From NCBI GenBank assembly GCA_031280435.1, contig JAITGS010000013.1, forward strand, positions 1-34,997: a stretch of DNA of 34,997 bases, given 5' to 3'. Positions 1-33,237 of the stretch are shown piece after piece (position 1 is the stretch's first letter; every line of letters starts with the position of its first letter). Source of the stretch: Tannerellaceae bacterium (GTDB taxonomy: Bacteria > Bacteroidota > Bacteroidia > Bacteroidales > Tannerellaceae). A model generated the notes under the pieces. That model had not been told where the DNA came from. It saw nothing but the letters and a program-made list of their open reading frames with translations, and ran no database searches. A program made the translations under genes and the position numbers.

Positions 1-255
1 GAGAGAGCTCCCTGCTAGCAACGGGGCGGTTTCCACATTTGTGGAAAGCTCCGCGCTGACAACGGGGCAATCTCCACAGTGGTGGAGAGCTCCCTGCTGA
101 CAGCGGGGCAATCTCCACAGTGGTGGAGAGCTTCCTGCTGACAACGGGGCCGTCTCCGCAACGGTGGAAAGCTTCCTGCTGCCAGCGGGACGGTCTCTCC
201 ACTTGTGGAAAGCGCCGGCATGTCCGGTTTGAGATTTCCACCTGTGGGAGAGAGG
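1..255. repeat. 41-bp tandem array 1 (runs off the left edge)
   Basis: The motif AGCTCC/AGCTTCC/AGCGCC recurs at 6, 47, 88, 129, 170 and 211, exactly 41 bp apart each time. Each unit holds a short palindrome such as TCTCCAC-AGTG-GTGGAGA, followed by a CTGCTGACAACGGGG-like stretch. The unit ending near 46 reads TTTCCAC...GTGGAAA while its neighbours read TCTCCAC...GTGGAGA, so both arms changed together. A degenerate seventh palindrome lies near 233-252. The start of the array lies before the window. No convincing gene is seen from 1 to 665; reading frames across the array lack an initiation context. Confidence 0.93.
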
Positions 256-353
256 GGGCGGCCATGTCTTTTTGTCAGTCCGACGGCTGGAGATTGGCCG
301 CCTCCCGGATATTATATCAGCCCAAGAAGAATGTTAAGACAAGTTTAAGTACC

Positions 354-389
354 GGAACGAAAAATTGTCAGTTTAATCGTTCCTTTTTT
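354..389 (+). terminator. Possible intrinsic terminator
   Basis: GGAACGA (354-360) pairs with TCGTTCC (377-383), and six T residues follow at 384-389. It would end transcription of a gene lying before the window. The same left arm can instead pair with CTGACAATTCGTTC at 390-403, giving a competing hairpin. Confidence 0.45.
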
Positions 390-444
390 CTGACAATTCG
401 TTCTCCCCCCCCGACCTTCCCCTCTATCGATCTCAAATATGCCT

Positions 445-504
445 TTTGCGCAGTTCCGCAAGCGGCTTGCGGGCTGCCGCAAACGATTGGCGGAACTGCG
501 CAAA
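445..504. repeat. Perfect 15-bp inverted repeat with nested hairpin
   Basis: TTTGCGCAGTTCCGC (445-459) is the exact reverse complement of 490-504. The loop itself contains GCGGC...GCCGC. It sits just upstream of the lpdA promoter. It may be a regulatory or mobile-element remnant; no function can be assigned. Confidence 0.7.
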
Positions 505-545
505 GCCTTTGGGGAAAGAGCTCAAACCGATTGCGGGCAGGGGAA

Positions 546-579
546 TTTTGCCGCGGGCCTGTTTTTTTACCTATTTTTG
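546..579 (+). promoter_or_regulatory. Bacteroidetes-type promoter of lpdA
   Basis: TTTTG at 546-550 (-33 box) is separated by 21 bp from TATTTTTG at 572-579, matching the Bacteroidetes sigma consensus TTTG-N19-21-TAnnTTTG. The predicted transcript starts near 585, about 80 nt before lpdA. Confidence 0.65.
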
Positions 580-665
580 CGCGGGACGGCTCCCATTGCA
601 TACACGAGATATGGAAGGGGGAGCGGACGTACAATCAATTATATAATAGAAAAAAACAGAAAATA

Positions 666-2678: not shown

Positions 2679-2689
2679 CCAAGGAGAAA

Positions 2690-6781: not shown

Positions 6782-6862
6782 TGCTTTCGTCCGGCGGGAA
6801 GCTTGCTGGGTTTCAAAAAGTCTACTTTCGCTCGGCGGGAAGCTTGCTGGGTTTCAAACGGC
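6782..6862. repeat. Short degenerate 41-bp array (two units)
   Basis: CGGCGGGAAGCTTGCTGGGT begins at 6792 and again at 6833, exactly 41 bp apart. The words CGGCGGGAA and AAGCTTGCT are shared with the six-unit array at 11808-12043, so the two loci hold related arrays of the same period. Confidence 0.8.
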
Positions 6863-7023: not shown

Positions 7024-7249
7024 AATGTGTCAAAAAGGAGGTTACGCTCGCAAAGCAGGTCATTCCCGCGAAGGCGGGAATTCGAAGCAAGCTTTTAGCT
7101 TGCGAGAATCGACGCAGTCAATCTCCGTTCGAAAGACGGATACGATTGTAGTTGTATCATATAAAACAAACAGTACTATCGTCCCAACTATCGATCGGAG
7201 ATTCCCGCCTTCGCGGGAATGACCTATTTGGGCAGGCTGAATTACCTTT
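7024..7249. repeat. Palindromic ATTCCC-N8-GGGAAT element, copy A
   Basis: ATTCCC-N8-GGGAAT occurs at 7062-7081 and, inverted, at 7201-7220. Between them are inverted inner arms (CTCCGTTCGAAAG against CTATCGATCGGAG). The right flank TATTTGGGCAGGCTGAATTA is identical to that of copy C. Copy A carries an extra ~35 bp with its own small hairpin (GCAAGC...GCTTGC) inside the left half. The element ends about 150 bp before pyrC and lies in its leader. Confidence 0.88.
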
Positions 7250-9892: not shown

Positions 9893-10014
9893 GGGAACTT
9901 CTAATAATTAGATTTTTCAAGGCTTGCGACGGAGGCAAAAGCGGAGTGTACTTTAGTACATGAGCATTTTGCCGACCGAGCGTAACGCAGAAAAAGCAAT
10001 TAGTAGAAGTTCCC
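9893..10014. mobile_element. 122-bp hairpin (MITE-like) element, copy 1
   Basis: Its core is nearly identical to the reverse complement of 27987-28110. The ends pair perfectly: GGGAACTTCTA (9893-9903) with TAGAAGTTCCC (10004-10014). The interior folds further (GGCAAAAGC against GCATTTTGCC, and TGTACT-TT-AGTACA at the tip), so the whole element can form one long stem. It lies downstream of gap and codes for nothing plausible. I recall near-identical sequences in many Bacteroidales genomes. Confidence 0.85.
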
Positions 10015-10022
10015 TTTAATAC

Positions 10023-11400: not shown

Positions 11401-11452
11401 ACAATTTTCGAGTGCGTTCAAAACCTGGACGGTTTACTTCAGTTCGGCGGGA

Positions 11453-11575
11453 ATGTGTCAAAAGGCAATTCAGCCTGCCCAAATATGTCATTCCCGCGAA
11501 GGCGGGAGGCCCTGCGGTGGTGTTTGTAGAGACGCGATTAATCGCGTCTCTACGGGGCCTGGGCATTGCAGGCGA
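11453..11575. repeat. Palindromic element, half copy B, with a 28-bp perfect palindrome
   Basis: The left arm GTCAAAAGGCAATTCAGCCT leads to ATTCCC-N8-GGGAGG at 11490-11509, one imperfect copy of the element's signature. The matching right arm is missing. In its place lies a perfect 28-bp palindrome at 11526-11553: GTAGAGACGCGATT followed by its exact reverse complement. This second palindrome type is not found elsewhere in the window. Confidence 0.8.
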
Positions 11576-11803
11576 TGCATCAAAAACCCTTCACGCTCGA
11601 ACAATATGTCATGTCAATGCGTCAAAAGGCAATTCAGCCCGCCCATACGGGTCATTCCCGCGAAGGCGGGAATCTCCGATCGATAGTTGGGACGATAGTA
11701 TAAGCCCGTTGTGTCTAAGAATTATGCAATCGTATCCGTCTTTCGATCGGAGATTCCCGCCTTCGCGGGAATGACATATTTGGGCAGGCTGAATTACCTT
11801 TTT
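11576..11803. repeat. Palindromic element, copy C (complete)
   Basis: ATTCCC-N8-GGGAAT occurs at 11654-11673 and, inverted, at 11753-11772. The left flank GTCAAAAGGCAATTCAGC (from 11625) is the inverted match of the right flank GCTGAATTACCTTTTT (to 11803), and inner arms CTCCGATCGATAG and CTTTCGATCGGAG also pair. The whole unit is a near-palindrome of roughly 180 bp. A second left-end variant, CCCTTCACGCTCGAACA, lies just before it (11587-11603) and is also found in copy D. Confidence 0.88.
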
Positions 11804-12045
11804 GGAAAGCTTGCTTTTGTTCGGCGGGAAACTTTCCAGTTTCTGGAAAGCTTGCTTTCGTTCGGCGGGAAACTTTCCAGTTTCTGGAAAGCTTGCTTTT
11901 GTTCGGCGGGAAACTTTCCAGTTTCTGGAAAGCTTGCTTTTGTTCGGCGGGAAACTTTCCAGTTTCCGGCAAGCTTGCTTTCGTTCGGCGGGAAACTTTC
12001 CAGTTTCTGGCAAGCTTGCTTTCGTTCGGCGGGAAACTTTCCGGA
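11804..12045. repeat. 41-bp tandem array 2 (six units)
   Basis: AGCTTGCTTT recurs at 11808, 11849, 11890, 11931, 11972 and 12013, exactly 41 bp apart. Each junction forms the palindrome CTTTCCAG-TTT-CTGGAAAG, with minor variation in the last two units. Frames are open on both strands because the unit lacks stop codons; I do not regard them as genes. The array lies between the start of dinB and the end of the kinase gene. Confidence 0.95.
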
Positions 12046-18085: not shown

Positions 18086-18086
18086 G

Positions 18087-18101: not shown

Positions 18102-18140
18102 GCCTTTATATACCCCCGAAATTCCCCTTCCCGGCCTTCA

Positions 18141-18643
18141 ATGCCGCAGCGGCATTTTGAAGGAAAAAAATCCGGCCCAATGCCGCAGCGGCAAAATGCC
18201 CAAATTGTTTGCGGGAAGCCAATGCCGCACCGGCAAAGCCCTCAAATCGACTTTTTGAGGCCAATGCCGCTGCCAATTTGTCCCCAAATCATCTTTTTGG
18301 AGCCGATGCTGCTGCCAATTTGTCCTCAAATCACTTTTCCGGGGCCGATGCAGGCCCGGATTTCCCCCCAAAAGGCCCTATTTAGCCCTTTGCCGGTGCG
18401 GCAGAGGCTTCCCGCAAATAAATTGGGCCCTTTGCCGCTGCGGCATTGGGTATATGAAAGCCGGGTGGGCCCTTTGCCGCTGCGGCATTGGGTATATGAA
18501 AGCAGGGTGGGCCCTTTGCCGCTGCGGCATTGGGGTGGATGAGGCCGGGTGGGTCCTTTGCCGCTGCGGCATTGGGGTGGATGAGGCAGGGTGGGCCCTT
18601 TGCCGCTACGGCATTGGGTGCCGGCGGCGGGCTCAGGGCTGAT
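18141..18643. repeat. 42-bp tandem array 3, core flips orientation midway
   Basis: The palindromic core TGCCGC-T-GCGGCA and its variants begin at 18142, 18181, 18223, 18265, 18307, 18349, 18391, 18433, 18475, 18517, 18559 and 18601. After the first gap of 39 bp, every step is exactly 42 bp. The sequence between cores is of one type on the left (AAATC-CTTTTTG-like, ending GGCCAATGCC) and another on the right (GGGCCCTTTGCC...ATTGGG), in inverted relation. A 42-bp unit equals 14 codons, so long repetitive frames are open on both strands; they lack supported starts. The rest of the gap to 18724 shows nothing certain. Confidence 0.95.
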
Positions 18644-18724
18644 ATTCTTAATTTTTATTAGAGGTTTAAACCATAGGGAAGGCTTGCCGTCTATCCATAT
18701 ACAAATCATTTATATATTGAAATC

Positions 18725-21625: not shown

Positions 21626-21696
21626 GCCTCGGCACTCGGCTCGCTTAATCAAAACACAATAACGTTCTAATAGGTATCGGTAATATCGCAATCCCT

Positions 21697-21733
21697 TTGG
21701 AGGCTTCTATCTCGGTAGTAGCCTCCAATTTTT
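21697..21733 (+). terminator. Intrinsic terminator of the 18725-21625 gene
   Basis: TTGGAGGCT (21697-21705) pairs with AGCCTCCAA (21720-21728) and is followed by five T residues. Confidence 0.85.
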
Positions 21734-21734
21734 A

Positions 21735-21764
21735 TTTGTCCAAGTCCGATTGGTATTACCTTTG
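21735..21764 (+). promoter_or_regulatory. Promoter of the sigma/FecR/receptor operon
   Basis: TTTG at 21735-21738 and TACCTTTG at 21757-21764 are spaced 18 bp, one less than the usual range. The transcript would begin near 21770, about 90 nt before the sigma gene. Confidence 0.55.
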
Positions 21765-21859
21765 GAGCAAAATCCTCCGGCTGCACTGCAATCTTTATTG
21801 GGCAAGCCTGGGGGTAGATCGCCTCTTGTGCGGTATTAATAACATAAGAAACAGCTATA

Positions 21860-22348
21860 ATGTTAAGCGAAACAGACTTCAAGAGCCTCTTCGGCGAGCA
21901 CTTCGACGCAATCCGCACCTACGTCTTCTATCGCTGCGGCGATACCCTGACCGCCTCGGACATAGCCCAGGACGTTTTCCTGCGGATATGGGAAAAGCGA
22001 GGCTCGCTGAGCTCGGACAGCATCAAGCCGCTGCTGTACAAGATAGCCTCGGACTCCTACGTCAGCAATTACAGGAAAGCCTGCTGCCGGATGAACTTCG
22101 CGCAAAACATGACAGCCGAAAACGCAACCGAGCTCTCCCCCGAAGACACAATTATATACAACGAAACTGCCGCCGCATACTCCTCCGCCCTCAAGCAAAT
22201 GCCGGAGATGCAGCGCACCGTCTTCCTCATGCATCGCGAAGACGAAATGAAGTACCGCGAGATAGCCGAATGTTTAAGGATAAGCGTAAAGACAGTGGAG
22301 AAGCACATGAGCGCAGCATTAAGATATATGAGAAGCAAACTATTATAA
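21860..22348 (+). CDS. ECF RNA polymerase sigma factor (FecI-like)
   Basis: Protein of 162 residues. Sigma region 2 spans about 8-75 (FGEHFDAIRTYVFYRCGD...ASDIAQDVFLRIWEKRG, the -10-binding helix). Region 4 spans about 105-160 (LKQMPEMQRTVFLMHREDEMKYREIAECLRI...VKTVEKHMSAALRYMR, a helix-turn-helix). It is directly followed by a FecR anti-sigma gene and a receptor gene with an STN domain, so it should be released when the receptor is loaded and then transcribe this or a linked operon. Region 4 carries the Bacteroidetes-typical KTVEKHMSAAL. Confidence 0.95.
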   Translation: MLSETDFKSLFGEHFDAIRTYVFYRCGDTLTASDIAQDVFLRIWEKRGSLSSDSIKPLLYKIASDSYVSNYRKACCRMNFAQNMTAENATELSPEDTIIYNETAAAYSSALKQMPEMQRTVFLMHREDEMKYREIAECLRISVKTVEKHMSAALRYMRSKLL

Positions 22349-22360
22349 ACTCAACATAGC

Positions 22361-23119
22361 ATGAACGCAAATAACATCAGAATCAAGCCCGAATGGCCGC
22401 AAAGCAAGGAAGAAATATGGAGCAAAACCTTCGCCGGTTTAAAGGAAAGTCCCGCCGCAAACAGGCAGCCTTATCACATTCGGGTATGGCAATATGCAGC
22501 CGCCGTTTTAATCCTGGCCGTATCGTTTTGTAGCTTATATCAGGTAGCAGATGAAGCAGCTGCCGGCGAGCAGGCCTTAGTAGCGCTGCCCGATCATTCG
22601 AGCGTCAGGCTTAATGCCGGAAGCCGTATCACTTATCGTCCGTTCGGCTGGTTTTTATCCCGAACCTTAAAGCTCGAAGGCGAAGGATATTTCGAGGTAA
22701 ATAAAGGCAGAGCTTTCAGCGTAGTTTCCGGAAAAAATAAAGTCAAAGTGCTCGGCACAGTCTTCAATGTTTATTCCAGGGACAGCAAGTACCGGGTGAC
22801 ATGCATCGGCGGCAGCGTAGAGGTAGTTTCCGCGGGAGGATCGGCCATCCTTCAGCCCGGAATGAAGGCAATCTGCGACGGAAAAGAGATGCGGATAGCC
22901 GCCGGACAGGCGCCCGAATGGATGTACGGCCGACTTGTTTTCGTCGAAACCCCCCTCGCGGAAGTGATAGCCGAAATAGAGCGGCAGTACAACATAAAGG
23001 TGACTACAAACGCCCAATTAAATCATCTTTATACCGGCAACTTCCGGCAAACCGAACAAGCCGAAACGGTTCTCGAAATAGTCGGGAAGCCCTTCGGTAT
23101 TACATTCGGAATCGAATAG
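22361..23119 (+). CDS. FecR-family anti-sigma factor
   Basis: Protein of 252 residues. A short cytoplasmic N-terminus (~1-40) holds the sigma-binding part, followed by one membrane helix (about 43-60, QYAAAVLILAVSFCSLY). The periplasmic FecR domain runs from ~75 to 165 (LPDHSSVRLNAGSRITY...GEGYFEVNKGRAFSV...VKVLGTVFNVYS). A C-terminal DUF4974-type domain covers ~180-252 (LVFVETPLAEVIAEIERQYN). It passes the receptor's signal across the inner membrane to the sigma factor at 21860-22348. The gene starts 12 bp after the sigma stop, and its stop directly abuts the receptor start. Confidence 0.94.
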   Translation: MNANNIRIKPEWPQSKEEIWSKTFAGLKESPAANRQPYHIRVWQYAAAVLILAVSFCSLYQVADEAAAGEQALVALPDHSSVRLNAGSRITYRPFGWFLSRTLKLEGEGYFEVNKGRAFSVVSGKNKVKVLGTVFNVYSRDSKYRVTCIGGSVEVVSAGGSAILQPGMKAICDGKEMRIAAGQAPEWMYGRLVFVETPLAEVIAEIERQYNIKVTTNAQLNHLYTGNFRQTEQAETVLEIVGKPFGITFGIE

Positions 23120-25708
23120 GTGAGCGGACGGATTATCCTTGCGCTTATGCTCGCCGCGACCGTCCTTACAGGACATTCGCAAAGCCTCAGGCTCGACCTG
23201 GATAATGTTCCGCTTAACAGGGTTCTTGCCGGGCTTAATGTTGCAATATCCTTTGACGATAAGGCCCTGTCGGCATACAGCGTATCCGTTGCGCAATCCT
23301 TCGATACTCCCGAAAGTGCAATCGAACATTTGCTGAAGGACAAACCCTTTCGTGTAGAAAAAATCGAAGACGTTTATGTCATAGTTCCGCATGCCAGAAA
23401 GCGGAATGAGGCCAAAGCCGTCCATCCTTTTGCCGAAGCAAATCGCTACCTATTCCGCGGGATTGTACTCGACAAAGATTCGCCCGCAGCCTTGGAATAT
23501 GCGGCAGTAAGTTTGCTCCGTCACGACGGCGATATTATAGTCACGGGAGTGTCGGCGCAGGACGGGACTTTCGGCATGGAAAGCCGGGAGATGCCTGCCA
23601 TGATTCAGATCAGTTATTTAGGATACGAGAGCCTGCTTAAGAACATTTATACGGCCGGCGACCTCGGCATCTTCCTGCTTAAATCAAAAGAATTTCAGCT
23701 GGGCGAAACCGTAGTCGCTGCGGACAAAAAAGCCGATAGGGGAATCAATCGCGCTACCTGGTTAATCACGCCGCAAATGCGCGCAGGCGCTCTTAATGCG
23801 ATAGAACTATTAGACCGGATTCCGGGAGTATTACTGGATGAAGCCATGGAAACAGTGCTGGTGAATCATCAGGCCAACGTGCTGATGGTGGTCGACGGCA
23901 TAGAGCACAAGCCTTCCTATCTCAAGCATTTATCTCCCCACAGAGTGGATGCGGTTGAAATCATAAATGCAGTGTCCGGGCGCTACGTGTCGGACGATTA
24001 TGCGGCCATCATCAACTTCGTTTTAAAGAAGGATTACAGAGGATACGACCTGAACGCCTTCCAATCCGTTTCGCTCAATCTATCGGGCAATAATACGAAT
24101 TCGGCCGGGAATAATTCGGGGGTAGGATTGAGCTATTCTGCGGGCAAAATAAATCTGTCGGCCTCATGGTCGTACGATGCGGATAAGAGGGAGATTTACT
24201 CGGACAAATTCCTTCGCTACGATCACTTAAGCTTCGTTTCTTTGCCCTCGGATGTGCCGAACAACCTTTACCGAAACTCCAACCATACGCTCAACGGAGG
24301 ACTGAGCTTTCGGCTTTCGGGCCGGCAATTAATAGGCGTGCAGACCAACTATCTTTCGGGCAGCATTTACTCCAAGTCGAGGCATGTTATGCAATATGCC
24401 GATTCGCTTTTCTCCGATTACAGGCTGACTAATGTATCCCGTAATCTGACTAAGGCAAAAGCCTTCACTGGTATGCTTTATTATCAGGCGCAATTTATCA
24501 ACAGGCTGCATCTTTATGCCGATCTGTCTTACAATTATTATTACAACCAGATAGAAAACGAATATCACCGGGAGGAGACGGCCGACCTGCGTTATGATGA
24601 CTATTATAACGAATATAAGAACCATACGGTGGCCAATCTTGAGGCCCGTTATATTCTGTCGGACGCCATATCGGCCGAGGCCGGATATTCCAATATCCGG
24701 CGCGAATATGCCTCGACCGACAGCCGCGGTATAGGTTTTCTGGACTATACCGAACAGCGTAATAAAGGCTTCGCCTATCTGTCGTTTTATCCCTTAAGAA
24801 AGATGGAAATTAAGGCCGGAATTGTGTTGGAGCAAACCCTGAGTAAGGACAGGGACAGGGCATGGAAATCCTCCGTTATGCTGCCCCTGTTGCTGTTCAA
24901 TTACAGGATAAGCAACGCAATTAACCTCAGGGCAGGCTATCATGCGCGCCAATCGCACCCATCATTATATCAGCTTAGCCCCATGAGTATTGTGGTCGAC
25001 ACCTTCATGACGCAGTCCGGCAATCCGGCCCTTAAATCGTCGGTTAAGCACAATGTGTTGCTGGAAATTGATTTTGCAAACAGGCTGAAACTGTCCGGTG
25101 TTTTCAACTATACGCAAGACGGAATAAGCGAGCTGTATAACCCCGTGGTCAATAAATTTTACAGGACGTTTAACAACGTCGACTTCAGGGAATATAACAT
25201 TCAAATCTCCTATGACAGGGAGTTAGACAAGTATTTCCGATTCAAAAATTCGCTGATGTTTTACCGTGAAGAGGCCATGCACAGGAGGATCAATAATACC
25301 CACAACGGTTTAATGTTCTTCTCTGAAATCAATTACTATAACGCCGCATTTTCGTTTGGAATTCAACTTGGCTATTACAATAACATGCGGAAAAATATTA
25401 TCTGGCAGGGATTTCAGATGTCCGGCTCCGATCATTGGAATATTGCTCTGCAAAAGGGGGTATGGAACGACCGTATTGCCCTTGCTTTATCCTACACTCC
25501 ACCCTTCTTGCCGGGGGTAAGATACAACAGGATTAAAGAAATAAAAAGTCTGATCTATAACGAGAAAACCGTCTTTAAAATGGACTCGTACCGGCACATG
25601 CTTCTTCTCAAAATAAATGTGAACATAGGAAGTTGGGGCGTTACAAAGTCCGAACAAAAAGCGGTGGTAACAGAACGCGAGAGGGAGAGGCCACCATTAC
25701 AAAATTGA
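23120..25708 (+). CDS. TonB-dependent receptor with STN signalling domain
   Basis: Outer membrane transducer of 862 residues starting at a GTG that directly abuts the FecR stop (TAGGTG). The signal peptide covers ~1-22. The STN domain (~24-78, LDLDNVPLNRVLAGLNVAIS) talks to FecR. A carboxypeptidase-regulatory-like domain follows at ~92-175. The plug is at ~200-300 (NAIELLDRIPGVLLDE...VLMVVDGIEHKP...VDAVEIINAVSGRYVSDDYAAIINFVLK), and the barrel fills ~310-850. No TonB box is obvious. The last ~18 residues (VVTERERERPPLQN) are charged rather than aromatic. Ligand unknown; no SusD partner is next to it, so it looks like a Fec-type rather than Sus-type system. Confidence 0.94.
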   Translation: MSGRIILALMLAATVLTGHSQSLRLDLDNVPLNRVLAGLNVAISFDDKALSAYSVSVAQSFDTPESAIEHLLKDKPFRVEKIEDVYVIVPHARKRNEAKAVHPFAEANRYLFRGIVLDKDSPAALEYAAVSLLRHDGDIIVTGVSAQDGTFGMESREMPAMIQISYLGYESLLKNIYTAGDLGIFLLKSKEFQLGETVVAADKKADRGINRATWLITPQMRAGALNAIELLDRIPGVLLDEAMETVLVNHQANVLMVVDGIEHKPSYLKHLSPHRVDAVEIINAVSGRYVSDDYAAIINFVLKKDYRGYDLNAFQSVSLNLSGNNTNSAGNNSGVGLSYSAGKINLSASWSYDADKREIYSDKFLRYDHLSFVSLPSDVPNNLYRNSNHTLNGGLSFRLSGRQLIGVQTNYLSGSIYSKSRHVMQYADSLFSDYRLTNVSRNLTKAKAFTGMLYYQAQFINRLHLYADLSYNYYYNQIENEYHREETADLRYDDYYNEYKNHTVANLEARYILSDAISAEAGYSNIRREYASTDSRGIGFLDYTEQRNKGFAYLSFYPLRKMEIKAGIVLEQTLSKDRDRAWKSSVMLPLLLFNYRISNAINLRAGYHARQSHPSLYQLSPMSIVVDTFMTQSGNPALKSSVKHNVLLEIDFANRLKLSGVFNYTQDGISELYNPVVNKFYRTFNNVDFREYNIQISYDRELDKYFRFKNSLMFYREEAMHRRINNTHNGLMFFSEINYYNAAFSFGIQLGYYNNMRKNIIWQGFQMSGSDHWNIALQKGVWNDRIALALSYTPPFLPGVRYNRIKEIKSLIYNEKTVFKMDSYRHMLLLKINVNIGSWGVTKSEQKAVVTERERERPPLQN

Positions 25709-25756
25709 TGCTATGCACGCACAGGTTTTGTTTCACATTCCCGAAATTAAGGAAAA

Positions 25757-26103
25757 CAGAGCTCTATGTTTTTATACATTTACCAAAAATGAATAAAACC
25801 GAGTGCTATGTTTTTGCATATATCGGCAAAACGAAAAGAACATAGTCCTATGTTGGCCTATTCCAAACAAAATCAAGCAAACCGAGTGCTATGTTTGCTT
25901 GAATTTGATCAAAATATACCAAACCGAGTGCTATGTTTGGCCTGTTCTCCGAAAAATGAAGCAAACCGAGTGCTATGTTTGGCCCATTCTCCGAAAAATG
26001 AGGCAAACCGAGTGCTATGTTTAGCCCATTCTCCGAAAAATGAGGCAAACCGGGTGCTATGTTTGGCCCGTTCTTCGAAAAATAAGGCAAACATAGCTCT
26101 CGG
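25757..26103. repeat. 42-bp tandem array 4, last core inverted in phase
   Basis: The core CCGAGTGCTATG and its variants begin at 25757, 25799, 25841, 25882, 25924, 25966, 26008 and 26050, 42 bp apart except one 41-bp step. The next position, 26092, holds CATAGCTCTCGG, the core in reverse orientation, still exactly 42 bp on. The core is framed by CAAAC...GTTTG. The linkers read CCGAAAAATGAGG-like in the central units. Open frames on both strands are products of a stop-free 42-bp unit. The gap between the receptor gene (ends 25708) and the lipoprotein promoter shows nothing else. Confidence 0.95.
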
Positions 26104-26172
26104 TTTGTTTCGTTTGGAAGGAAAGGAGGCAAAGTGCGAACGTGTTTGGGCCCGCCCGGCTTCAATTTGTTC

Positions 26173-26180
26173 TAACTTTG
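26173..26180 (+). promoter_or_regulatory. -7 box of the lipoprotein genes
   Basis: TAACTTTG matches TAnnTTTG, with the predicted start near 26187, about 86 nt before the first lipoprotein. Confidence 0.55.
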
Positions 26181-26272
26181 TCCTGAGCTTGTCCTATTTT
26201 TCAGAGCATGAGAGTAAGCAGGTAGGGTTTTTTATTGTGTAATCGGTATATTAACAGAAAGTGATTTGATGT

Positions 26273-26803
26273 ATGAACAAAATGTATTTGATTTTAGGGA
26301 TGTCGGTATGGTTTTTGGTTGCAGGATGTCGTCCTGAGACCGAGGAGCCTGCACTTTCGGATGTGTCGACGCAAATTATTGCGGTTGCGGCCTATTACGA
26401 GCCTCAGTATGATAACGACAAACATATTGTTTTTACGGGTAACGATATTCTTTGGTTTAATGAGACAACAAGGGAGCTGCGTTTCCGCCAAAATTATTCG
26501 AATAAGGCTATTGTTACGGAGAACAGGGAGTTCGGAATACAGTTTTTTATAGGCGACGAATTTGTTTTGTTTACCCCGGTTTGTATGGACGTTTTGAGCT
26601 ACCGTATCTTCGACCAGCCGGTTTTTTATTACGATGTCATCAACAACAAATACTTCATACCGGACGGATTTCCGGATGTGTCTTTACTGCCCGACCCCGC
26701 TCAGCATCAATGGGTGCGAAGCGAGAACCGCAAGGCGGTGGAACAGGAATGGGCGAGGCTTATGGAGCAGCTGAAAAAGGAGAATTTATACAGAACGAAT
26801 TAA
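26273..26803 (+). CDS. Lipoprotein of unknown function
   Basis: Protein of 176 residues. It begins with a lipoprotein signal, MNKMYLILGMSVWFLVAGC, with lipobox LVAGC and the acylated Cys at about residue 19. The following residues (RPETEEP) are acidic, as in lipoproteins surface-exported in Bacteroidetes, though the motif is not exact. No family is recognised in the remainder. It contains YDNDKHIVFTGNDILWFNETT and an aromatic-rich stretch, suggesting a small beta domain, and ends in a basic and acidic helix. It lies 30 bp before another lipoprotein gene in the same direction and behind the receptor operon; a shared function is possible but not shown. Confidence 0.75.
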   Translation: MNKMYLILGMSVWFLVAGCRPETEEPALSDVSTQIIAVAAYYEPQYDNDKHIVFTGNDILWFNETTRELRFRQNYSNKAIVTENREFGIQFFIGDEFVLFTPVCMDVLSYRIFDQPVFYYDVINNKYFIPDGFPDVSLLPDPAQHQWVRSENRKAVEQEWARLMEQLKKENLYRTN

Positions 26804-26833
26804 TGTATGTTTAATATATAATATAAGAAGATT

Positions 26834-27877
26834 ATGAGTAAAAGAATTTCGAACGGAATGATTGCGTTTATGCTTGCTGCGGCGCTGGCGTTAATGACTT
26901 TTTCCTGTCTGAAAACGGAGGGATACCCGGATGATGAGCATGAGCCTACGATTGATTACCCGGAGCTCGAAGTTGCCGTCGGGAGAATGCAGCGCGACGA
27001 TGCCGGAAGGCTGCTGGCAATAGCTGCGACAAGGAGCTTCGATACGCGGACGGATCTCGACACGATTGAGATCCAAGACTGGGCGTCTGTGCTGCGTGCC
27101 GAGGGCGACCGGCCTTACGTGAGCTATCCTTATGATGCGATACAGATATCAGGGGCTCTGTTTTATACGGTTGGCGGCGATCGCTTCCCGTTCTTGCGCC
27201 AAATTTGCGGCCAGGGGGATTTGCTCGTTACGGTTTCGGCTTTCACGGCTTATGTGGAGCAGCATGACAGGCCCGAAAACCTTGAGCCGCCGCTCAATAC
27301 TCCTCCGGGCATGCGGATAGTGGTTAGCGACGGGATGATTGCTTTCCGAGGCCCTGCGGGTGTGTACAGCTGCCTGCTGAACGACGGTGCGAACTACACT
27401 GCTATCTTCAGTTCGCACAAGAAGCTGACGGAGCATGAGGAGATCAAGGATTTCACTCCGCCGCTTTACTACTTTTACCTCAATGCCGAGGTTGGTCGCA
27501 CCCGCCTTGGCTTCCAGGCGCTCTTTGGCGAAGACGGCATGCTTCATCCCGATACCAATATCGTATGGGCCGAGCTCGTTCCGCAGGGAACGTACACGGA
27601 GCCGCAGCTGTACGACGTGGATGAGCTTACGAAGTTCCCTCAATCGAGCCAGGTTTGCACCCTTACGGGGATGACGGACAGCATGATGTTCGTGACGGCT
27701 CCCGCTCCTTCGGAAATAAGGAATGTGCTGTTCGATGCTTATACGGTTTTCACTGAGAAGGGCCTGCCTGCTACGGCTGATGCCTTCAAGCCGGGCGATG
27801 TGATAACGATTACGTACGACGAACCCTACGAGGGCTACCGGCCGTGGATTGTGTTTGCCAATACGGTTTCCAAGTAA
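26834..27877 (+). CDS. Lipoprotein of unknown function
   Basis: Protein of 347 residues with a signal ending in a lipobox-like MTFSC (Cys at about residue 25), then an acidic spacer (DDEHEPTIDYPE). No domain is recognised. The first ~80 residues look folded (VAVGRMQRDDAGRLLAIAATRSFDT), and the C-terminus has FKPGDVITITYDEPYEGYRPWIVFANTVSK, which reads like a beta-sandwich domain of a surface protein. It probably shares the promoter at 26173 with the lipoprotein before it. It has no start promoter of its own and is followed by a strong hairpin. Confidence 0.75.
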   Translation: MSKRISNGMIAFMLAAALALMTFSCLKTEGYPDDEHEPTIDYPELEVAVGRMQRDDAGRLLAIAATRSFDTRTDLDTIEIQDWASVLRAEGDRPYVSYPYDAIQISGALFYTVGGDRFPFLRQICGQGDLLVTVSAFTAYVEQHDRPENLEPPLNTPPGMRIVVSDGMIAFRGPAGVYSCLLNDGANYTAIFSSHKKLTEHEEIKDFTPPLYYFYLNAEVGRTRLGFQALFGEDGMLHPDTNIVWAELVPQGTYTEPQLYDVDELTKFPQSSQVCTLTGMTDSMMFVTAPAPSEIRNVLFDAYTVFTEKGLPATADAFKPGDVITITYDEPYEGYRPWIVFANTVSK

Positions 27878-27949
27878 AAATTGATGAATGCTTATACATA
27901 CGCCATGATTTAGAAGTTTAGTTTTTTGGATTCCAAGTTGTGTACAGAG

Positions 27950-27982
27950 AAGGCCGCCGGAAAATCTAATTCCGGCGGCCTT
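27950..27982. terminator. Perfect 13-bp hairpin after the lipoprotein genes
   Basis: AAGGCCGCCGGAA (27950-27962) pairs with TTCCGGCGGCCTT (27970-27982) around a 7-nt loop. It is 5 bp from hairpin element copy 2. There is no T tract immediately after it. Confidence 0.65.
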
Positions 27983-27986
27983 CGTC

Positions 27987-28110
27987 ATGCTGTTTCTACT
28001 AATTGCTTTTTCTGCGTTATGCTCCGTCGGCAAAATGCTCATGTACTAAAGTACACTCCGCTTTTGCCTCCGTCGCAAGCCTTGAAAAATCTAATTATTA
28101 GAAGCAGCAT
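27987..28110. mobile_element. 124-bp hairpin (MITE-like) element, copy 2
   Basis: Its core is the reverse complement of 9893-10014 with few changes. The ends pair as ATGCTGTTTCTA (27987-27998) with TAGAAGCAGCAT (28099-28110), 12 bp with one G-U pair. On the plus strand six T residues follow at 28113-28118, so the element as a whole reads like a very long terminator. It lies between converging genes; the DUF2807 stop is at 28136. Confidence 0.85.
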
Positions 28111-28135
28111 CATTTTTTGTAGATGCTTATTTATT

Positions 28136-28858
28136 CTACTGATATACGTCGCCGCCTCCGCTCTTGTGCGTTTCGGCGTGGTTTCGGGTGAGCCTGCGGA
28201 TGTTGACGTCGGCTCCTCCGCTGGCATTGGCCTTCACGGTATCGGCCTTTCCGCTGAGACTGATGTCGGCTCCGCCGCTGGCCGAGCAGGATATTTTCCC
28301 GGTGGCCTCAAGCTCTATGCTGATGTCGGCCCCTCCGCTGGCGTCGAAGTCGGCATCGGTCGTGCGCAGGGCCTTGATTGTGCAATCGGCTCCTCCGCTG
28401 GCGCTAACCTTGGTGCTCCCGTTCACGGTCAGGCTGTTGATTTTGACGTCGGCTCCGCCGGAGAGGTCGATGTGGCAATCAGCGTCGCATGTTACCTTCT
28501 CGGCAATGAAATCGGCTCCGCCGGAGGCACGGATCTCCCTGAGTCTCGGCGCGGAGACGTGCACCTTGACGCTCCAGCCCTTCCTGTTGAAGAGGTTGAA
28601 GCCGTTGAAGTTCGATTTGCGCTTTACGGTGAGTACTCCGGAGCTTACCTCGGTGATGATTTCCTTCAGTATGTCCTCGTCGGCCTCAACCGTTATGGAG
28701 TAGGAGGCCGATTCGGTGAAGATGACGTCTATTCCGCCGCTGTTGAATATCGCTTCGAAGGGAGCGGCCTGCCGCGTTTCCTTCTTTACGGCCGCCGGCG
28801 ATGCTGCGATAGCAACTATGGCTATCAAAATGATGATGTAAAAAGTTTTTGTTTTCAT
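28136..28858 (-). CDS. DUF2807 (head GIN) exported beta-helix protein
   Basis: Protein of 240 residues with a signal peptide (~1-22, FYIIILIAIVAIAASPAA). It consists largely of ~20-residue turns of a right-handed beta-helix, each starting SGGAD: the repeat appears six times between about residues 110 and 235, every 19-21 residues, with a final SGGGD. An earlier SGGIDVIFTESASYSITVEAD segment belongs to the domain head. The family is common and poorly characterised in Bacteroidetes; a surface or periplasmic location is expected. It has its own promoter at 28896 and is not part of an operon. Confidence 0.9.
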   Translation of the reverse strand: MKTKTFYIIILIAIVAIAASPAAVKKETRQAAPFEAIFNSGGIDVIFTESASYSITVEADEDILKEIITEVSSGVLTVKRKSNFNGFNLFNRKGWSVKVHVSAPRLREIRASGGADFIAEKVTCDADCHIDLSGGADVKINSLTVNGSTKVSASGGADCTIKALRTTDADFDASGGADISIELEATGKISCSASGGADISLSGKADTVKANASGGADVNIRRLTRNHAETHKSGGGDVYQ

Positions 28859-28895
28859 ATTATATAATTATTAATCCTATTAAAAGATAGACGAG

Positions 28896-28903
28896 CAAAG
28901 TTA
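28896..28903 (-). promoter_or_regulatory. -7 box of the DUF2807 gene
   Basis: TAACTTTG on the minus strand matches TAnnTTTG, about 37 bp before the start codon. Confidence 0.6.
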
Positions 28904-28953
28904 GGAAATGTTGCAGCTCATCTGGATTGCGGCCGTATAAATTGCGAATTACT

Positions 28954-28961
28954 TACATTTG
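28954..28961 (+). promoter_or_regulatory. -7 box of the CMP-kinase-like operon
   Basis: TACATTTG matches TAnnTTTG; transcription would start near 28967, about 13 nt before the ATG at 28980. This favours that ATG over a TTG at 28959. Confidence 0.55.
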
Positions 28962-28979
28962 CCGGAAAAACGAAGCTAT

Positions 28980-29576
28980 ATGACAAGCAACAATATCACC
29001 ATCAGCGGCGAGCCGGGCAGCGGCAAGAGCTCGGTTACTGCAATCCTCCGTAGAGAGCTGGGGTTCGAGGTAGTCTCGGTGGGCCTCATCCAGCGCGAGA
29101 TGGCCGCAAGCCTGAACATGAGCGCGGTGGAATTTAACCGCTACATGGAAACCCACCCCGAGCTCGACCACGAATGTGACCGCCGCGTGGCCGAGCTGGG
29201 CCGCAGGCAGGGCATCATCTTCGATTCGAGGATGGCCTGGCGCTTTGTTCCCCATTCCTTCAAGGTTTTCCTGACGGTGGAGGAGCATATTGCAGCCAAA
29301 CGGATCTTCGGGGACACAAACCGTATAGGCGAAAGCTTCGATCACATCGAGGAGGCCGTGAGCAAGATACGCGAAAGGCGCGACAGCGAGCGATTGAGGT
29401 TCAGGATGCAGTACGATGCAGACCTTGCGGATTTCGGCAACTACGATCTGGTGGTGGATACCTCCGAATCGTCTCCGGCCAGGACAGCCGCCTGCATACT
29501 CGATAACTACTACCTGCACTCGGAGCAAAAGCCCTACCGACGGCTATGGCTCGGAAACCAGGCGGACATCGAATAG
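28980..29576 (+). CDS. Cytidylate-kinase-like P-loop protein (archaeal type)
   Basis: Protein of 198 residues. The Walker A motif is SGEPGSGKSS (9-18). The following VSVGLIQREMAASLNMSAVEFNRYME segment and the DHECDRRVAELG helix recall the archaeal-type CMP kinase (TIGR02173-like) rather than the standard bacterial Cmk. The middle FDSRMAWRFVP occupies the place of the nucleotide-binding loop, and the C-terminal helices are charged. It would phosphorylate CMP or a related nucleotide, but specificity is inferred. The ATG at 28980 follows a -7 box directly. The next gene, 35 bp on, is a secreted Gfo/Idh/MocA protein; the connection is unclear. Confidence 0.8.
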   Translation: MTSNNITISGEPGSGKSSVTAILRRELGFEVVSVGLIQREMAASLNMSAVEFNRYMETHPELDHECDRRVAELGRRQGIIFDSRMAWRFVPHSFKVFLTVEEHIAAKRIFGDTNRIGESFDHIEEAVSKIRERRDSERLRFRMQYDADLADFGNYDLVVDTSESSPARTAACILDNYYLHSEQKPYRRLWLGNQADIE

Positions 29577-29611
29577 CACCGACTTATTATTAACTTATAA
29601 ATATTGATACC

Positions 29612-30712
29612 ATGAAAGCACTAAAACAGTTTATCTCGATTTTGATCGTAGCCCTTGCGGCAGCAGCCGCACATCATGCACATGCAGAGGAAGGCAAGCC
29701 TATGCGGCTTGCAGTTGCCGGAATATCCCACGGACATCTGGCCGAGGTGGTCAACCGTATCGGCCGCGGCGACTTTGTTATCGTCGGAGTATTTGAAGCC
29801 GACCGTGATTTGAGGGAGCACAACCGGCTGCGCGACAAGCTTGCCCCCGAACTCTTCTACGGCAACCTGGAGCGGATGCTGGACGACACCAAGCCGGAGG
29901 CGGTTGTGGCCTACGGCTCCATATACGATCACCTGAGCGTGGTCGAAGCCTCTGCCCCGCGAGGCATCCATGTGATGGTGGAGAAGCCTCTGGCGGTAAG
30001 CGTTGCCCACGCCGAGCGCATGGCGGAGCTCGCCCGCAAGCACAGCATCCATCTGCTCACAAACTACGAGACCACATGGTACGCAACGAACCACGAGGCC
30101 TTCCGGCTGACGGACAGCCGGGCCATAGGCAGCGTCACCCGCATCAACGTGTACGACGGCCATAAGGGCCCGATAGAGATTGGCTGCTCAAAGGAGTTCC
30201 TCTCCTGGCTAACCAATCCCGTAGGCAACGGCGGAGGCGCGGTGATGGACTTCGGTTGCTACGGCGCCAATCTTGCCACCCGCATCATGAACGGAGAGAA
30301 GCCCCTGAAAGTACATGGAGTCCTGCTCCAGCAGAAGCCGGACAAATACCCGCTGGTCGACGACGATGCTACAATACTTTTGCAATATCCCAATGCCGTC
30401 GTACAGATCATGGCCTCGTGGAACTGGCCCATGAATCGCAAGGATATGCACATCTACGGCTCTCAGGGCTATATCTATCAGGATACGCCCAATTCCATGC
30501 GCATCTACCTCGACGGCAAGGAGCGGACGGAGAATCCGCCAGCCTTGCAGGCTCCCTACAATGATTCGTTCCTGTATCTGAAGGCAGTTGTCCGCGGCGA
30601 GATCGGCCTGAAGCCAACCGACCTCTCGGCTTTAGAGAACAACGTCACGGTGGTGCGAATCCTTGAGGCGGCCGTCAGGAGTTCGCAGCAGGGGAGCCCG
30701 GTGATACCCTGA
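29612..30712 (+). CDS. Exported Gfo/Idh/MocA-family oxidoreductase
   Basis: Protein of 366 residues. A signal peptide (~1-25, ISILIVALAAAAAHHAHAEE) precedes an NAD(P)-binding Rossmann domain (RLAVAGISHGHLAEVV). VMVEKPLAV is the family's EKP motif, with the catalytic-type lysine, and the C-terminal domain carries GGGAVMDFGCYG and DATILLQYPN. Family enzymes act on sugars or sugar derivatives. An ordinary Sec signal on a cofactor-binding enzyme is odd, because NAD(P) must be loaded after folding; Tat export would be usual. Its 3' end overlaps the opposite-strand regulator by 38 bp. Confidence 0.88.
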   Translation: MKALKQFISILIVALAAAAAHHAHAEEGKPMRLAVAGISHGHLAEVVNRIGRGDFVIVGVFEADRDLREHNRLRDKLAPELFYGNLERMLDDTKPEAVVAYGSIYDHLSVVEASAPRGIHVMVEKPLAVSVAHAERMAELARKHSIHLLTNYETTWYATNHEAFRLTDSRAIGSVTRINVYDGHKGPIEIGCSKEFLSWLTNPVGNGGGAVMDFGCYGANLATRIMNGEKPLKVHGVLLQQKPDKYPLVDDDATILLQYPNAVVQIMASWNWPMNRKDMHIYGSQGYIYQDTPNSMRIYLDGKERTENPPALQAPYNDSFLYLKAVVRGEIGLKPTDLSALENNVTVVRILEAAVRSSQQGSPVIP

Positions 30713-31376
30713 GCGCATATCCCTTCCCGCTTACCGATACTATCTCCGCTCCCGGATCGTTCCGCAGAGCTTTGCGCAAGTACGTCACCTGAACATTCAG
30801 GGCAAGTGAATTGGCATGGGATACATTTCCCCATACGGCAGCGAGTATCGCCTCCCGCGAGACCGTTTCGTTGAGCCGCACGGCCATCATTCGCAGTATG
30901 TCGGCCTGGCGGGAGGTTATGAGCGTCTTGCTGTTGCCCGTGCGCAGCTCGTTGGCGTCGTAGTCGAAGTAGGTGGATGCAAAAACGATGGCTTCGCTGC
31001 CCGGTGCAAGCTCCGTTTCGAAGCGTTCGCGAATGCGTGCGAGCAGCTCTTCGGGATAGAAAGGCTTGGCGAGATAGTCGTTGCCCCGCAAGCCGAATCC
31101 CGTAAGGCGATCGGACTTGTCGGAGCGGTCGGACAGGAAGAAGATGAGCGTATGCTTGTCCGATCGGCGTATGCGCTCGGCCACCTCGAAGCCGTTGAGG
31201 CCTGGCATGTTCACGTCGAGCAGCACCAAGTCCGGTTTGATCTGCGCGAAGAGCTCGGCGGCGTTCAGTCCGTTGCCGGTGTAGGTGACGTCGTACCCCT
31301 CACGCTCCAGGAAGCGCTTGATGAGGAGCGAGTACTTCAGGTCGTCGTCGGCGAAGAGTATTTTCAGGGCTTTCAT
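30675..31376 (-). CDS. OmpR-family response regulator (RprY-like)
   Basis: Transcription factor of 233 residues. The receiver domain has acidic residues in LFADDDLKYS, phosphoacceptor D54 in LVLLDVNMPGLNG and lysine K104 in YLAKPF. The winged helix contains LITSRQADILRMMAV and LNVQVTYLRKALRNDPGAEIVSVSGKGYALRV. It starts 3 bp after the kinase stop, so the two are co-translated. The coding end runs 38 bp into the opposite-strand oxidoreductase gene, through a 9-residue tail beyond the usual GYALRV. Confidence 0.93.
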   Translation of the reverse strand: MKALKILFADDDLKYSLLIKRFLEREGYDVTYTGNGLNAAELFAQIKPDLVLLDVNMPGLNGFEVAERIRRSDKHTLIFFLSDRSDKSDRLTGFGLRGNDYLAKPFYPEELLARIRERFETELAPGSEAIVFASTYFDYDANELRTGNSKTLITSRQADILRMMAVRLNETVSREAILAAVWGNVSHANSLALNVQVTYLRKALRNDPGAEIVSVSGKGYALRVSPGSPAANS

Positions 31377-31379
31377 GGG

Positions 31380-32849
31380 TCACTGCGGGAATATCAGCTG
31401 CATGACGGTGCCTTCTCCGGGCCGGCCGGATAGAACAAGCCGTCCGCGATGCGCTTCGGTTATCAGCTTCACGTAGCTCAGTCCGAGTCCAAGCCCCGGC
31501 AGCTTGCTGTCGGGCAGGTTTGAGGCCCGATAGAACTTGTCGAACACCTTCTTCTGCTCGGCAACGGGTATTCCGATGCCATTGTCCGTAACGGAGATGC
31601 AAATCTCCTTGCCGCGGCTTTCGGCCTTCACGGCAATGCGTACCTCCCGGCCGGAATACTTCAGCGAGTTCTCTATAAGGTTGCTCAGCATGTTGGCCAG
31701 ATGCACAGGGTCGGCCTCAATCATCTCCGCTTCCGGAGCGATGTCTATGTCTATGCGCACCTCCTTGCCGGCGGCTGCGAGCGGCCTTAGCCGTACCAGC
31801 TTCTCGACGAGCTCCCGCAAATTGAAGCGCGAGAGCTGAAGGGGAGTAGTCTCGCTGTCGGTACGGATAATGTCCTTGAGCTTGTTCAGGTAAACCGACA
31901 GGTTGTCGATCTCGAACATGGAGTCGTGCACCACCTGCCGGGTAGCGTTTTCGTCGCTACGCATCTCGCGGTCGCCCAGGAAAGCGATGAAGGTCTTAAG
32001 GGTTTGCACCGGCCGCTTCAGCTCGTGAATCATGGTATTGACGAAGTTCTCGCGGAGCTCGCCGAGTTTCTTCTGCTTCAGAATCGTCTTGATTTGGAAC
32101 ATGAGGCAGCCGGTGAGCAGCAGAACCAGGCCTAAGGCTATGGCCAGCTGAAACGCCATACGGCCGAAGATGGGATGCGGCGGTATTGCCACACGGATAA
32201 GGACCCCTTTGTGCTCCATAGGGCTGTATGCATAGCTTACCGCCAGCTCCGGGCGGAGCAGCCCTCCGGTCTTTTCCCAGTGCGAGATGTAGCTGAGACT
32301 CGAATCGGCCTGCGTCCAGGCTTCCGTTGTATACTTCAGGGAGGGCATGTCGGCAGTCAGGATGGAGTCGAGCAGGGCGGGACCGAAGGGCACGAAGGAT
32401 TCGGTTACGGCTCTGCGAATGTTCCTCTGGAGCTCATCGTCCGACATGCTGTGCGGAGAGGTGATGGAGAAGTTCATTATGCGGCGTCCTACATCGGCTG
32501 CAAGCTCCCGGCCGGCCGAATCCGAAAGATGAGGCAGTGAGATGCCCGGACTGTCGATAGGCATCTTCATCGAAAAGGAGAATATCGTGGCGGCATGCCC
32601 GGATGCAGTCGCAGCAGAATCCGTAATGGCCGTATTGCGCTGCATCATGATTGAGAGCGGCCGTTTGTCGGCTGCCTTCCGCAGCTCATATTCCTGCTCG
32701 CAGGCAGCCAGAATCCGTGCAGCCGTATCCTCGGCATAAGTATCAATAACATATTTATACTGATTGTAGAGCCAATAGCACTGTACTCCTATCGCAAGCG
32801 CGGCCGATATAAGCGAAAGCGCCCAAACGATTCTTATTCTTCGTTCCAT
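31380..32849 (-). CDS. Membrane sensor histidine kinase (RprX-like)
   Basis: Protein of 489 residues. Transmembrane helices lie at about 7-27 and 230-252, with a ~200-residue periplasmic sensor between. The phosphoacceptor is H275 in IHELKRPVQTLK, a variant of the usual HELRTP that I recall in the RprX-like kinases of Bacteroides. The catalytic domain shows the N box NLIENSLKYSG, the G1 box DNGIGIP, the F box FDKFYRAS and the G2 box GLGLGLSYVK. No separate PAS domain is seen. It is the first gene of the operon with the regulator at 30675-31376; the order kinase-regulator also matches rprXY. Confidence 0.93.
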   Translation of the reverse strand: MERRIRIVWALSLISAALAIGVQCYWLYNQYKYVIDTYAEDTAARILAACEQEYELRKAADKRPLSIMMQRNTAITDSAATASGHAATIFSFSMKMPIDSPGISLPHLSDSAGRELAADVGRRIMNFSITSPHSMSDDELQRNIRRAVTESFVPFGPALLDSILTADMPSLKYTTEAWTQADSSLSYISHWEKTGGLLRPELAVSYAYSPMEHKGVLIRVAIPPHPIFGRMAFQLAIALGLVLLLTGCLMFQIKTILKQKKLGELRENFVNTMIHELKRPVQTLKTFIAFLGDREMRSDENATRQVVHDSMFEIDNLSVYLNKLKDIIRTDSETTPLQLSRFNLRELVEKLVRLRPLAAAGKEVRIDIDIAPEAEMIEADPVHLANMLSNLIENSLKYSGREVRIAVKAESRGKEICISVTDNGIGIPVAEQKKVFDKFYRASNLPDSKLPGLGLGLSYVKLITEAHRGRLVLSGRPGEGTVMQLIFPQ

Positions 32850-32872
32850 ATTCTCATAATAATTTGTGCGGG

Positions 32873-32880
32873 CAAAGATA
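32873..32880 (-). promoter_or_regulatory. -7 box of the second two-component operon
   Basis: TATCTTTG on the minus strand matches TAnnTTTG, giving a start near 32867, about 18 nt before the kinase ATG. Confidence 0.65.
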
Positions 32881-32950
32881 AGCCGGAAAAGGATTAATGC
32901 GATTTCCCCTAAATTCTTTGCCCTGCTGCCCTCTCAAAATCGCTTTTTGC

Positions 32951-33237
32951 TGCGAAAAACGGATTCGACATAATAACAAGTGTCATTGGCTTGCGAAAAA
33001 CGGATTCGGCAAAATGACAAATCTCATTGGCTTGCGAAAAACAGATTCGGCAGAATGACAAATCTCATTGGCTTGCGAAAAACAGATTTGAAAGAATGAC
33101 AAATGTTATTGGCTTGCGAAAAACAGATTCGGCAGAATGACAAATGTTATTGGCTTGCGAAAAACGGATTTGAAAGAATGACAAGTGTTATAAGCTTGCG
33201 AAAAACGGATTCGGCAGAATGCGATTTCAGGAGGGCT
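32951..33237. repeat. 41-bp tandem array 5 (seven units)
   Basis: TGCGAAAAAC recurs at 32951, 32992, 33033, 33074, 33115, 33156 and 33197, exactly 41 bp apart. The unit reads TTGGCTTGCGAAAAACGGAT, then TCGGCAGAATGACAAATGTT-like sequence, with small variants (GGATTCGG or AGATTTGA). A weak GCGAA...TTCGG pairing is possible inside each unit. It lies between divergent genes. From 33238 to 33446 nothing recognisable is seen. Confidence 0.95.

Follow-up and report, generated by a model that had tools for sequence, protein, structure and literature searches.

A 34,997-bp stretch of the genome of a Tannerellaceae bacterium (GenBank assembly GCA_031280435.1, contig JAITGS010000013.1; here called the window, contig C58 of the 3.06-Mb genome G000, which comprises 143 contigs and is 83% complete) carries six intergenic tandem arrays with a step of 41 or 42 bp. 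Within one genus, such arrays combine a two-class period spectrum, spread over more than 100 sequence clusters, with unit families that differ at the majority of compared orthologous gaps; some of these families are dispersed, and two show a doubling of modules. We tentatively favor the view that they are intergenic minisatellites of the kind associated with miniature inverted-repeat transposable elements (MITEs) in Porphyromonas gingivalis, greatly expanded and grown by the copying of whole modules, with a step that would be set by module geometry and not by function. Bacterial minisatellites are, to our knowledge, usually treated as unrelated accidents, and the pattern described here raises the testable question of whether tandem amplification in bacteria involves a ruler and, if so, of what nature.

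At each of the six arrays, the period proposed in an earlier reading of the sequence alone (the sequence-only reading) was the best of all lags tested and lay beyond the maxima of 300 shuffles (0.36-0.53), so that all six are present with the periods proposed. The arrays, none of which is assigned to a strand, lie at 1..255 (41 bp, ~5-6 units; match 0.72, shuffle maximum 0.39), 6792..6862 (41 bp, two units, between divergent genes; 0.90, 0.53), 11799..12043 (41 bp, 6 units, the array previously taken to begin at 11808; 0.96, 0.42), 18142..18643 (42 bp, ~12 cores; 0.67, 0.36), 25757..26103 (42 bp; 0.71, 0.36), and 32951..33237 (41 bp, 6.6 units, between divergent genes; 0.85, 0.38). Tandem Repeats Finder (TRF), our array finder throughout, called 6-213, 11799-12042, 18240-18351 together with 18424-18619, 25869-26092, and 32951-33221 in the window, and listed 25785-26065 at 84 bp as well; the two-unit array at 6792 is absent from this list. 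A single 39-bp step reported within a 42-bp array is real by visual inspection (18142 to 18181). The accompanying claim that unit sequences differ between loci stands for five unit families; the 6792 and 11808 arrays belong to one family (identities of 74.6% across 71 bp and 74.9% across 171 bp), and the window therefore holds five families, not six.

Constancy of period with variable sequence proved to be a trait of the whole genome sample. Across samples amounting to ~22% of G000, both TRF and a second, TRF-independent lag analysis scored by bins returned sharp bands, rather than the broad genome-wide distribution that the sequence-only reading had named as the outcome that would contradict it. 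The main sample comprised 28 stretches (431,675 bp), namely 20 odd-numbered contigs (C1-C39) and eight others drawn from contigs without a listed match to the window arrays, and TRF calls were counted there from a score of at least 60. Among 92 arrays with a period of at least 10 bp, 33 repeated at 41 bp, 16 at 42 bp, 5 at 40 bp, and 12 at 21-23 bp (7 at 21 and 3 at 23 bp); longer periods fell at 81-84 bp (8 arrays), 120-126 bp (9), and 63 bp (2), and periods of 16, 18, 33, 46, 69, 210, and 357 bp occurred once each. For the 88 arrays with a period of 19-130 bp, 85 lie within bands that were defined post hoc at 20-23, 40-43, 61-64, 80-85, and 120-127 bp and that make up 23% of this range, and 54 lie at 40-43 bp. 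The lag analysis placed 73 of 104 bins at 40-43 bp, 11 at 20-23 bp, 12 at 80-86 bp, 2 at 24-39 bp, and none at 44-60 bp, with no bins at all from shuffled sequence. The density of 21 arrays per 100 kb in the sample extrapolates to roughly 650 arrays per genome, and arrays cover ~4% of bases in the first sample of G000 (sum of the listed classes).

Constancy of period recurs, with other unit sequences, in a close relative. In G009, the closest relative compared, 17 of 30 arrays repeat at 40-42 bp; G012 has 8 of 27 arrays at 41-43 bp and 7 at 21-22 bp, and in G001 a period of 21 or 23 bp accounts for 9 of 13 arrays, with single arrays at 62 and 63 bp. G007, of the same genus, yielded 17 arrays with a period of at least 10 bp in 400 kb, including 12 at 21-22 bp and 2 at 44 bp. 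Other Bacteroidota (43 loci, 720 kb) showed a broad spectrum, with 5 of 41 bins at 20-23 bp and 1 at 40-43 bp, and 37 further loci (608 kb), whose groups were taken from record titles and are in some cases doubtful, gave 14 bins. Two 23-bp arrays were found in a Porphyromonas locus (L094). Within the data examined, sharp bands thus characterize this genus, and Porphyromonas offers the known parallel.

Single-linkage clustering of unit sequences, as the sequence-only reading had suggested, sorted 199 array regions of the genus, drawn from nine genomes, into 113 clusters, of which 31 have two or more members, 82 are single, and 6 include more than one species. Clusters of 15, 12, 11, and 7 array regions reflect the dispersal of families; the cluster of the 11799..12043 array comprises 8 array regions of its own genome's sample, and the family of the 18142..18643 array is likewise dispersed. 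Units were further compared in 47 non-redundant families, for which seven genomes supplied 120 arrays of 40-43 bp. No universal motif was seen in these families. A GCTTGCGGAA-like motif occurs at 9 or more of 10 letters in 5 of them (expected 0.1 from shuffles and 0.6 from genomic 41-mers), and at 8 or more letters in 8 (expected 1.4 and 3.7, respectively). A universal binding motif was rejected accordingly, the tested motif being confined to a minority of families.

This excess of one motif speaks for descent of all arrays from a single ancestral unit of ~41 bp (or ~21 bp), with period inherited and sequence saturated, and the dispersal of families and the mixing of 21, 42, and 63 bp periods within some clusters point the same way. 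We nonetheless consider common descent unlikely: no motif is universal, 39 of the 47 families lack a GCTTGCGGAA-like motif even at 8 of 10 letters, and the 23- and 41-nt repeats of P. gingivalis, as described in the portions of the account by Klein et al. on which we draw (2015, PMC4596501), have no homology to each other. Moreover, 31 of 331 steps between adjacent units shift by 1-2 bp, so that saturated sequence together with stable length would call for a restoring process.

Orthologous gaps show the turnover of unit sequences. Contig C47 of G009 (L269) is collinear with window positions 17455-34857, at 77-87% identity over large aligned blocks, and each of the window arrays at 18142, 25757, and 32951 has a counterpart in the same G009 gap, with periods of 42 bp, 41 bp (82 bp on the other strand), and 82 bp, respectively. 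The last of these consists, by eye, of two 41-bp units unrelated to the window's; the counterpart of 25757..26103, with its 41-bp step, is a distant member of that array's family, ranking 2 of 135 and falling into its cluster. The gap of the 6792 array holds a 12-unit 42-bp array of different sequence in G009, and downstream of the same kinase gene as the 11808 array, G009 (L270) has a 42-bp array with an unrelated unit. In total, five gaps carry arrays in both genomes by TRF (including the kinase gap and L242), or six if 6792 is counted; one gap has an array in G000 only, and two more gaps of at least 200 bp are empty in both. When G000 arrays were ranked by their likeness to each G009 partner, the orthologous array came 24th, 2nd, 40th, 45th, 66th, and 17th of 135-137, and among the six shared gaps one pair is of the same family and four are unrelated. 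The TonB-gap arrays of G000 and G009 were first taken by eye as partly related, which rank 24 of 135 did not bear out. In flanking intergenic DNA, by contrast, the two genomes agree at 355 of 457 aligned bases (78%). With array-occupied gaps amounting to 15 of 30 in G009, shared occupancy at six of seven gaps is only weakly beyond chance (~0.06, calculated by hand with one half for each gap).

Amplification with a fixed step, one of the explanations offered by the sequence-only reading, is possible, and we prefer it in the form of whole-module copying. The elementary unit would then be a hairpin-sized module of ~20.5-23 bp, and the unit of 41-42 bp a pair of modules, visible as such in some families and presumed in the others. 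Arrays would grow, shrink, and be replaced through the copying of whole modules, perhaps by slippage or unequal recombination; some would spread to new loci within dispersed elements, and arrays would persist in gene gaps because these tolerate them. The sequence at a given gap would be quickly replaced while the step stayed constant, copying being in whole modules, and this would explain the turnover, the two period classes, and the tolerance of small indels. A further idea, about which we are more doubtful, is that the genus copies DNA by a process whose intrinsic step is ~21 or 41 bp and which lays tandem copies of any gap sequence, position and step being inherited and sequence rewritten.

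Several features of the units bear on modules. The sequence-only reading held that most units contain a palindrome, and palindromes are indeed enriched over both shuffles and genomic 41-mers, but they are strong in a minority of families: a strong palindrome (score of at least 7) is present in 23% of the 47 families versus 2% of shuffles, and hairpin energy reaches z < -1.64 in 34% versus 13% of 60 random genomic 41-mers (mean z of -1.17 versus -0.24). A second dyad at half the period occurs above chance (0.79-0.98 versus 0.41-0.50). Doubling of modules is seen in two families, at L070 and at G012 L268, where alternating modules of 21 bp, alike in their palindromes, make up the 42-bp unit; 21-bp relatives lie in the same cluster in both cases (L071 with L070, L264 with G012 L268). 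In one G009 array, an asymmetric palindrome center occurs in both orientations (CTCCGTCCGGAG and CTCCGGACGGAG), and L059 shows a like mixture; such mixed orientations would fit hairpin-linked template switching. Mismatches of the G-T type outnumber A-C mismatches 9:2 on the gene strand of co-directional arrays and 30:8 on an arbitrary strand of the others, counts that are non-independent and from which nothing firm on RNA follows.

Mobility is evident for some families. The array at 32951 lies in a dispersed element spanning approximately 32904..33317 (no strand assigned) whose left end varies, and a tail of ~40-90 bp is common to four copies of this family (window, L238, L244, and L064). The element in which the L057 and L072 family resides is MITE-like: it has inverted ends and direct repeats, 9 bp long at L072 and 7 bp long at L057. 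The L072 gap is uninterrupted in G009, measuring 54 bp versus 590. More generally, inverted repeats (16 bp, at most two mismatches) flank 21 of 117 arrays versus 2 of 117 with shuffled flanks.

A number of observations weigh against growth by whole-module copying of MITE-type minisatellites. Inverted ends with an outer direct repeat were detected at only 3 of 139 array regions, two of them from one family and the third (L063) probably spurious, so most arrays are not demonstrably MITEs, and a search of 877,382 bp for the IS5-type end motif of P. gingivalis gave no exact match. The two halves of the average 40-43 bp unit resemble each other at 0.27-0.28 (lags 21-23), barely over the 0.25 expected by chance, and module pairing is thus not shown for most families. 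Strong palindromes are restricted to between about one quarter and one third of families, and changes in palindrome arms were compensated in 3 cases versus 81 broken (23 arrays), which led us to reject compensatory maintenance: hairpins are not visibly maintained. At the orthologous gaps, the L242/L252 pair (rank 17) falls within one single-linkage cluster of seven, and its unrelatedness is not certain. Finally, whole-module copying leaves unexplained the absence of 24-39 bp modules and the weak palindromes of most families, and it is on account of these two gaps that our preference stays tentative.

Placement and step length speak to whether spacing is under selection. The arrays are intergenic, as the sequence-only reading had it: with codon-usage gene calls, only 6 of 133 arrays of banded period in the G000 sample are centered more than 60 bp within a predicted gene, although under a cruder rule counting any open frame of at least 150 codons, 14 of 75 arrays overlap one, and frames do cross some arrays. 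An array is present in 41 of the 93 gaps that measure 150-2500 bp in the 28 stretches. Occupancy, counted with a simple codon-usage gene caller on a sample that includes stretches picked for arrays, rises from 0 of 34 gaps at 150-300 bp to 9 of 36 at 300-500 bp and 60 of 79 at 500 bp or more, a relationship that is partly circular since arrays lengthen their own gaps. In these longest gaps, arrays are present in 27 of the 36 that are co-directional, 24 of the 27 that are divergent, and 9 of the 16 that are convergent, and a promoter-only or terminator-only role was rejected because all three orientations are used.

Selection might keep the spacing itself if arrays had a structural or regulatory role (as hairpin RNA, transcription insulation, or a supercoil sink) and new sequences were accepted only at the right step. 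The filling of most long gaps and the enrichment in hairpin energy would fit such a role, as would the gap upstream of the TonB-type gene, where an array is present in 7 of 8 other genus members versus 2.9 expected from per-species occupancy (P ~0.0035; a single locus surveyed at a TRF threshold of at least 50, with some arrays weak, and with occupancy taken from small samples, pooled where fewer than 25 gaps were available). The periods in this gap are 42 bp in G009, 41 in G010, 42 in G005, 126 in G002, 23/69 in G001, 22 in G007, and 20 in G004; that of G012 has no array at this threshold. We nevertheless hold selection on spacing to be quite unlikely, because arrays occupy gaps of all orientations and so follow neither a promoter nor a terminator logic alone, compensation does not preserve palindromic arms, and indels are not depleted. 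Nor was a TRF array found upstream of the MocA gene in G005 (L272) or G002 (L273), or downstream of the kinase gene in G012 (L280), the identity of the other neighboring gene being unchecked in these cases. Comparison with G012, G005, and G007 covered six other collinear gaps, none of which had a TRF array on either side, the 6792 array being below threshold.

The steps themselves tell the same story at a finer scale. Steps between neighboring units number 331 in 85 arrays; 300 have the exact length, and the other 31, including 15 of the 43 less similar steps (0.6-0.8 identity), differ from it by 1-2 bp. Indel bases per mismatch base amount to 0.157 within arrays, and aligned intergenic stretches show 8 gap events per 102 mismatches, a comparison made in different units on short stretches and a small sample; as the ratio in arrays is no lower than in ordinary intergenic DNA, selection on spacing within arrays finds no support. 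The proposal that spacing, not sequence, is what is kept thus holds for the period of whole arrays, which is constant, but not as purifying selection on the distance between units. Since single units drift and yet array-level periods hold at 40-42 bp, we infer that something restores length when arrays turn over.

The other explanation put forward in the sequence-only reading, in which the period is set by a nucleoid protein bound in phase along one helix face, draws on the proximity of 21 and 42 bp to two and four turns of B-DNA. At ~10.5 bp per turn, a change of 1 bp per unit rotates the face by ~34 degrees per unit, and arrays of 41, 42, 21, and 23 bp cannot all be in phase; these periods coexist in one genome (33, 16, 7, and 3 arrays, respectively, plus one each of 46 and 69 bp), so that arrays would drift from phase within a few units. 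Units of three or five turns (~31 or 52 bp) are nearly absent, which simple phasing does not predict. We therefore reject helical phasing as the cause of the common period and regard phased binding as highly improbable.

Comparison with known systems places the arrays closest to those of P. gingivalis, where strain W83 has 41-, 23-, and 22-nt repeats and where PgRS elements with 41-nt repeats and BrickBuilt elements with 23-nt repeats lack mutual homology (PMC4596501); the portions of that paper on which we draw do not comment on a common period. The suggestion that nothing like these arrays had been described is therefore too strong with respect to MITEs carrying unrelated 41- and 23-nt repeats, but our literature search, with subscription literature mostly outside its scope, found no description of a constant-period, variable-sequence rule. 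Like the arrays reported here, PgRS/MITE464 is a dispersed MITE-like element with a 41-nt minisatellite and repetitive flanks; it differs in being, as far as described in those portions (PMC4596501), a single family with some 10-20 copies in a single species, as opposed to the 113 clusters in nine genomes found here, most without recognizable MITE ends. BrickBuilt is similarly an intergenic minisatellite, with a leader and a tail, repeat numbers that vary between strains, and predicted long stem-loops, but it is described as a single sequence family with IS5-type ends (PMC4596501); our sample contains no exact match to these ends. What the arrays have in common with MITE-borne minisatellites is the 20-23 and 40-43 bp period classes, intergenic placement, and multi-copy dispersal, and a more general rule may have two of its instances in the 41- and 23-nt repeats of P. 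gingivalis.

Repetitive extragenic palindromic (REP) sequences and bacterial interspersed mosaic elements (BIMEs), which are associated with REP-associated tyrosine transposases (RAYTs), are intergenic palindromic repeats that are partly tandem. The arrays resemble them in these respects and differ in changing sequence from locus to locus, in their fixed step, and in the lack of a Y1 transposase match in G000, G009, G012, and G001. With clustered regularly interspaced short palindromic repeats (CRISPR) they share regular spacing, but here the whole unit is repeated without unique spacers; cas genes were not searched for. Both the hairpin nuclease SbcCD and RAYT act on palindromic DNA, and absence of the former or presence of a REP-type Y1 transposase might in principle account for the arrays. 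Such an account is exceedingly improbable, as SbcD scores over the cut-off in array-rich (G000, G009, G012, and G001) and array-poor genomes (G007, G011, and G016) alike, and the Y1 transposase, without a match in G000 (83% complete), G009, G012, and G001, is present in array-poor G007 and G016; one was found in G004, array-rich in a 36-kb sample, and none in array-poor G011. Within the completeness limits of these incomplete genomes, neither SbcD loss nor Y1 transposase presence or absence serves as a simple explanation.

Additional observations concern individual arrays and their surroundings. The 22/23/46/69-bp class of G000 forms its own cluster, common to G001, with members at L067:1257-1560, L062:10494-10648, L235:19530-19674, L244:1034-1217, and G001 L259:415-665. 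The 18142..18643 array, upstream of the TonB-type outer-membrane gene, is partly self-inverted (18176-18450, 70%). The gene downstream of the array at 1..255 matches pyridine-nucleotide-disulphide oxidoreductases in Pfam, and its called open reading frame (ORF) begins within the array; in this ORF (120-2003) the first Pfam match starts at residue 185, and the frame at 18141-18539 has no Pfam match. ORFs running through arrays at 18141-18542 and 120-255 are probably artefacts. An Rfam search of the window at gathering thresholds returned tRNA only. The window's GAPDH shares 84% identity with that of a Porphyromonas species, in keeping with a place in Bacteroidales. Four loci (L095, L115, L117, and L118) encode a GAPDH 76-83% identical to that of the window in records labeled Alphaproteobacteria, Clostridiales, Flavonifractor, and Clostridia, which are possibly mislabeled or mixed metagenome-assembled genomes. 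The window also contains two other dispersed repeats. One, palindromic with the core CATTCCCGCGAAGGCGGGAATGAC and often in inverted pairs, lies at 11451-11802, 7024-7249, and 34867-34951, adjoins arrays of different families, and is present in G009 as well. The other (9946-10019 and 27994-28104) measures ~65-110 bp and recurs on several contigs at roughly 86-94% identity, with a copy at 92% in the TonB gap of G009.

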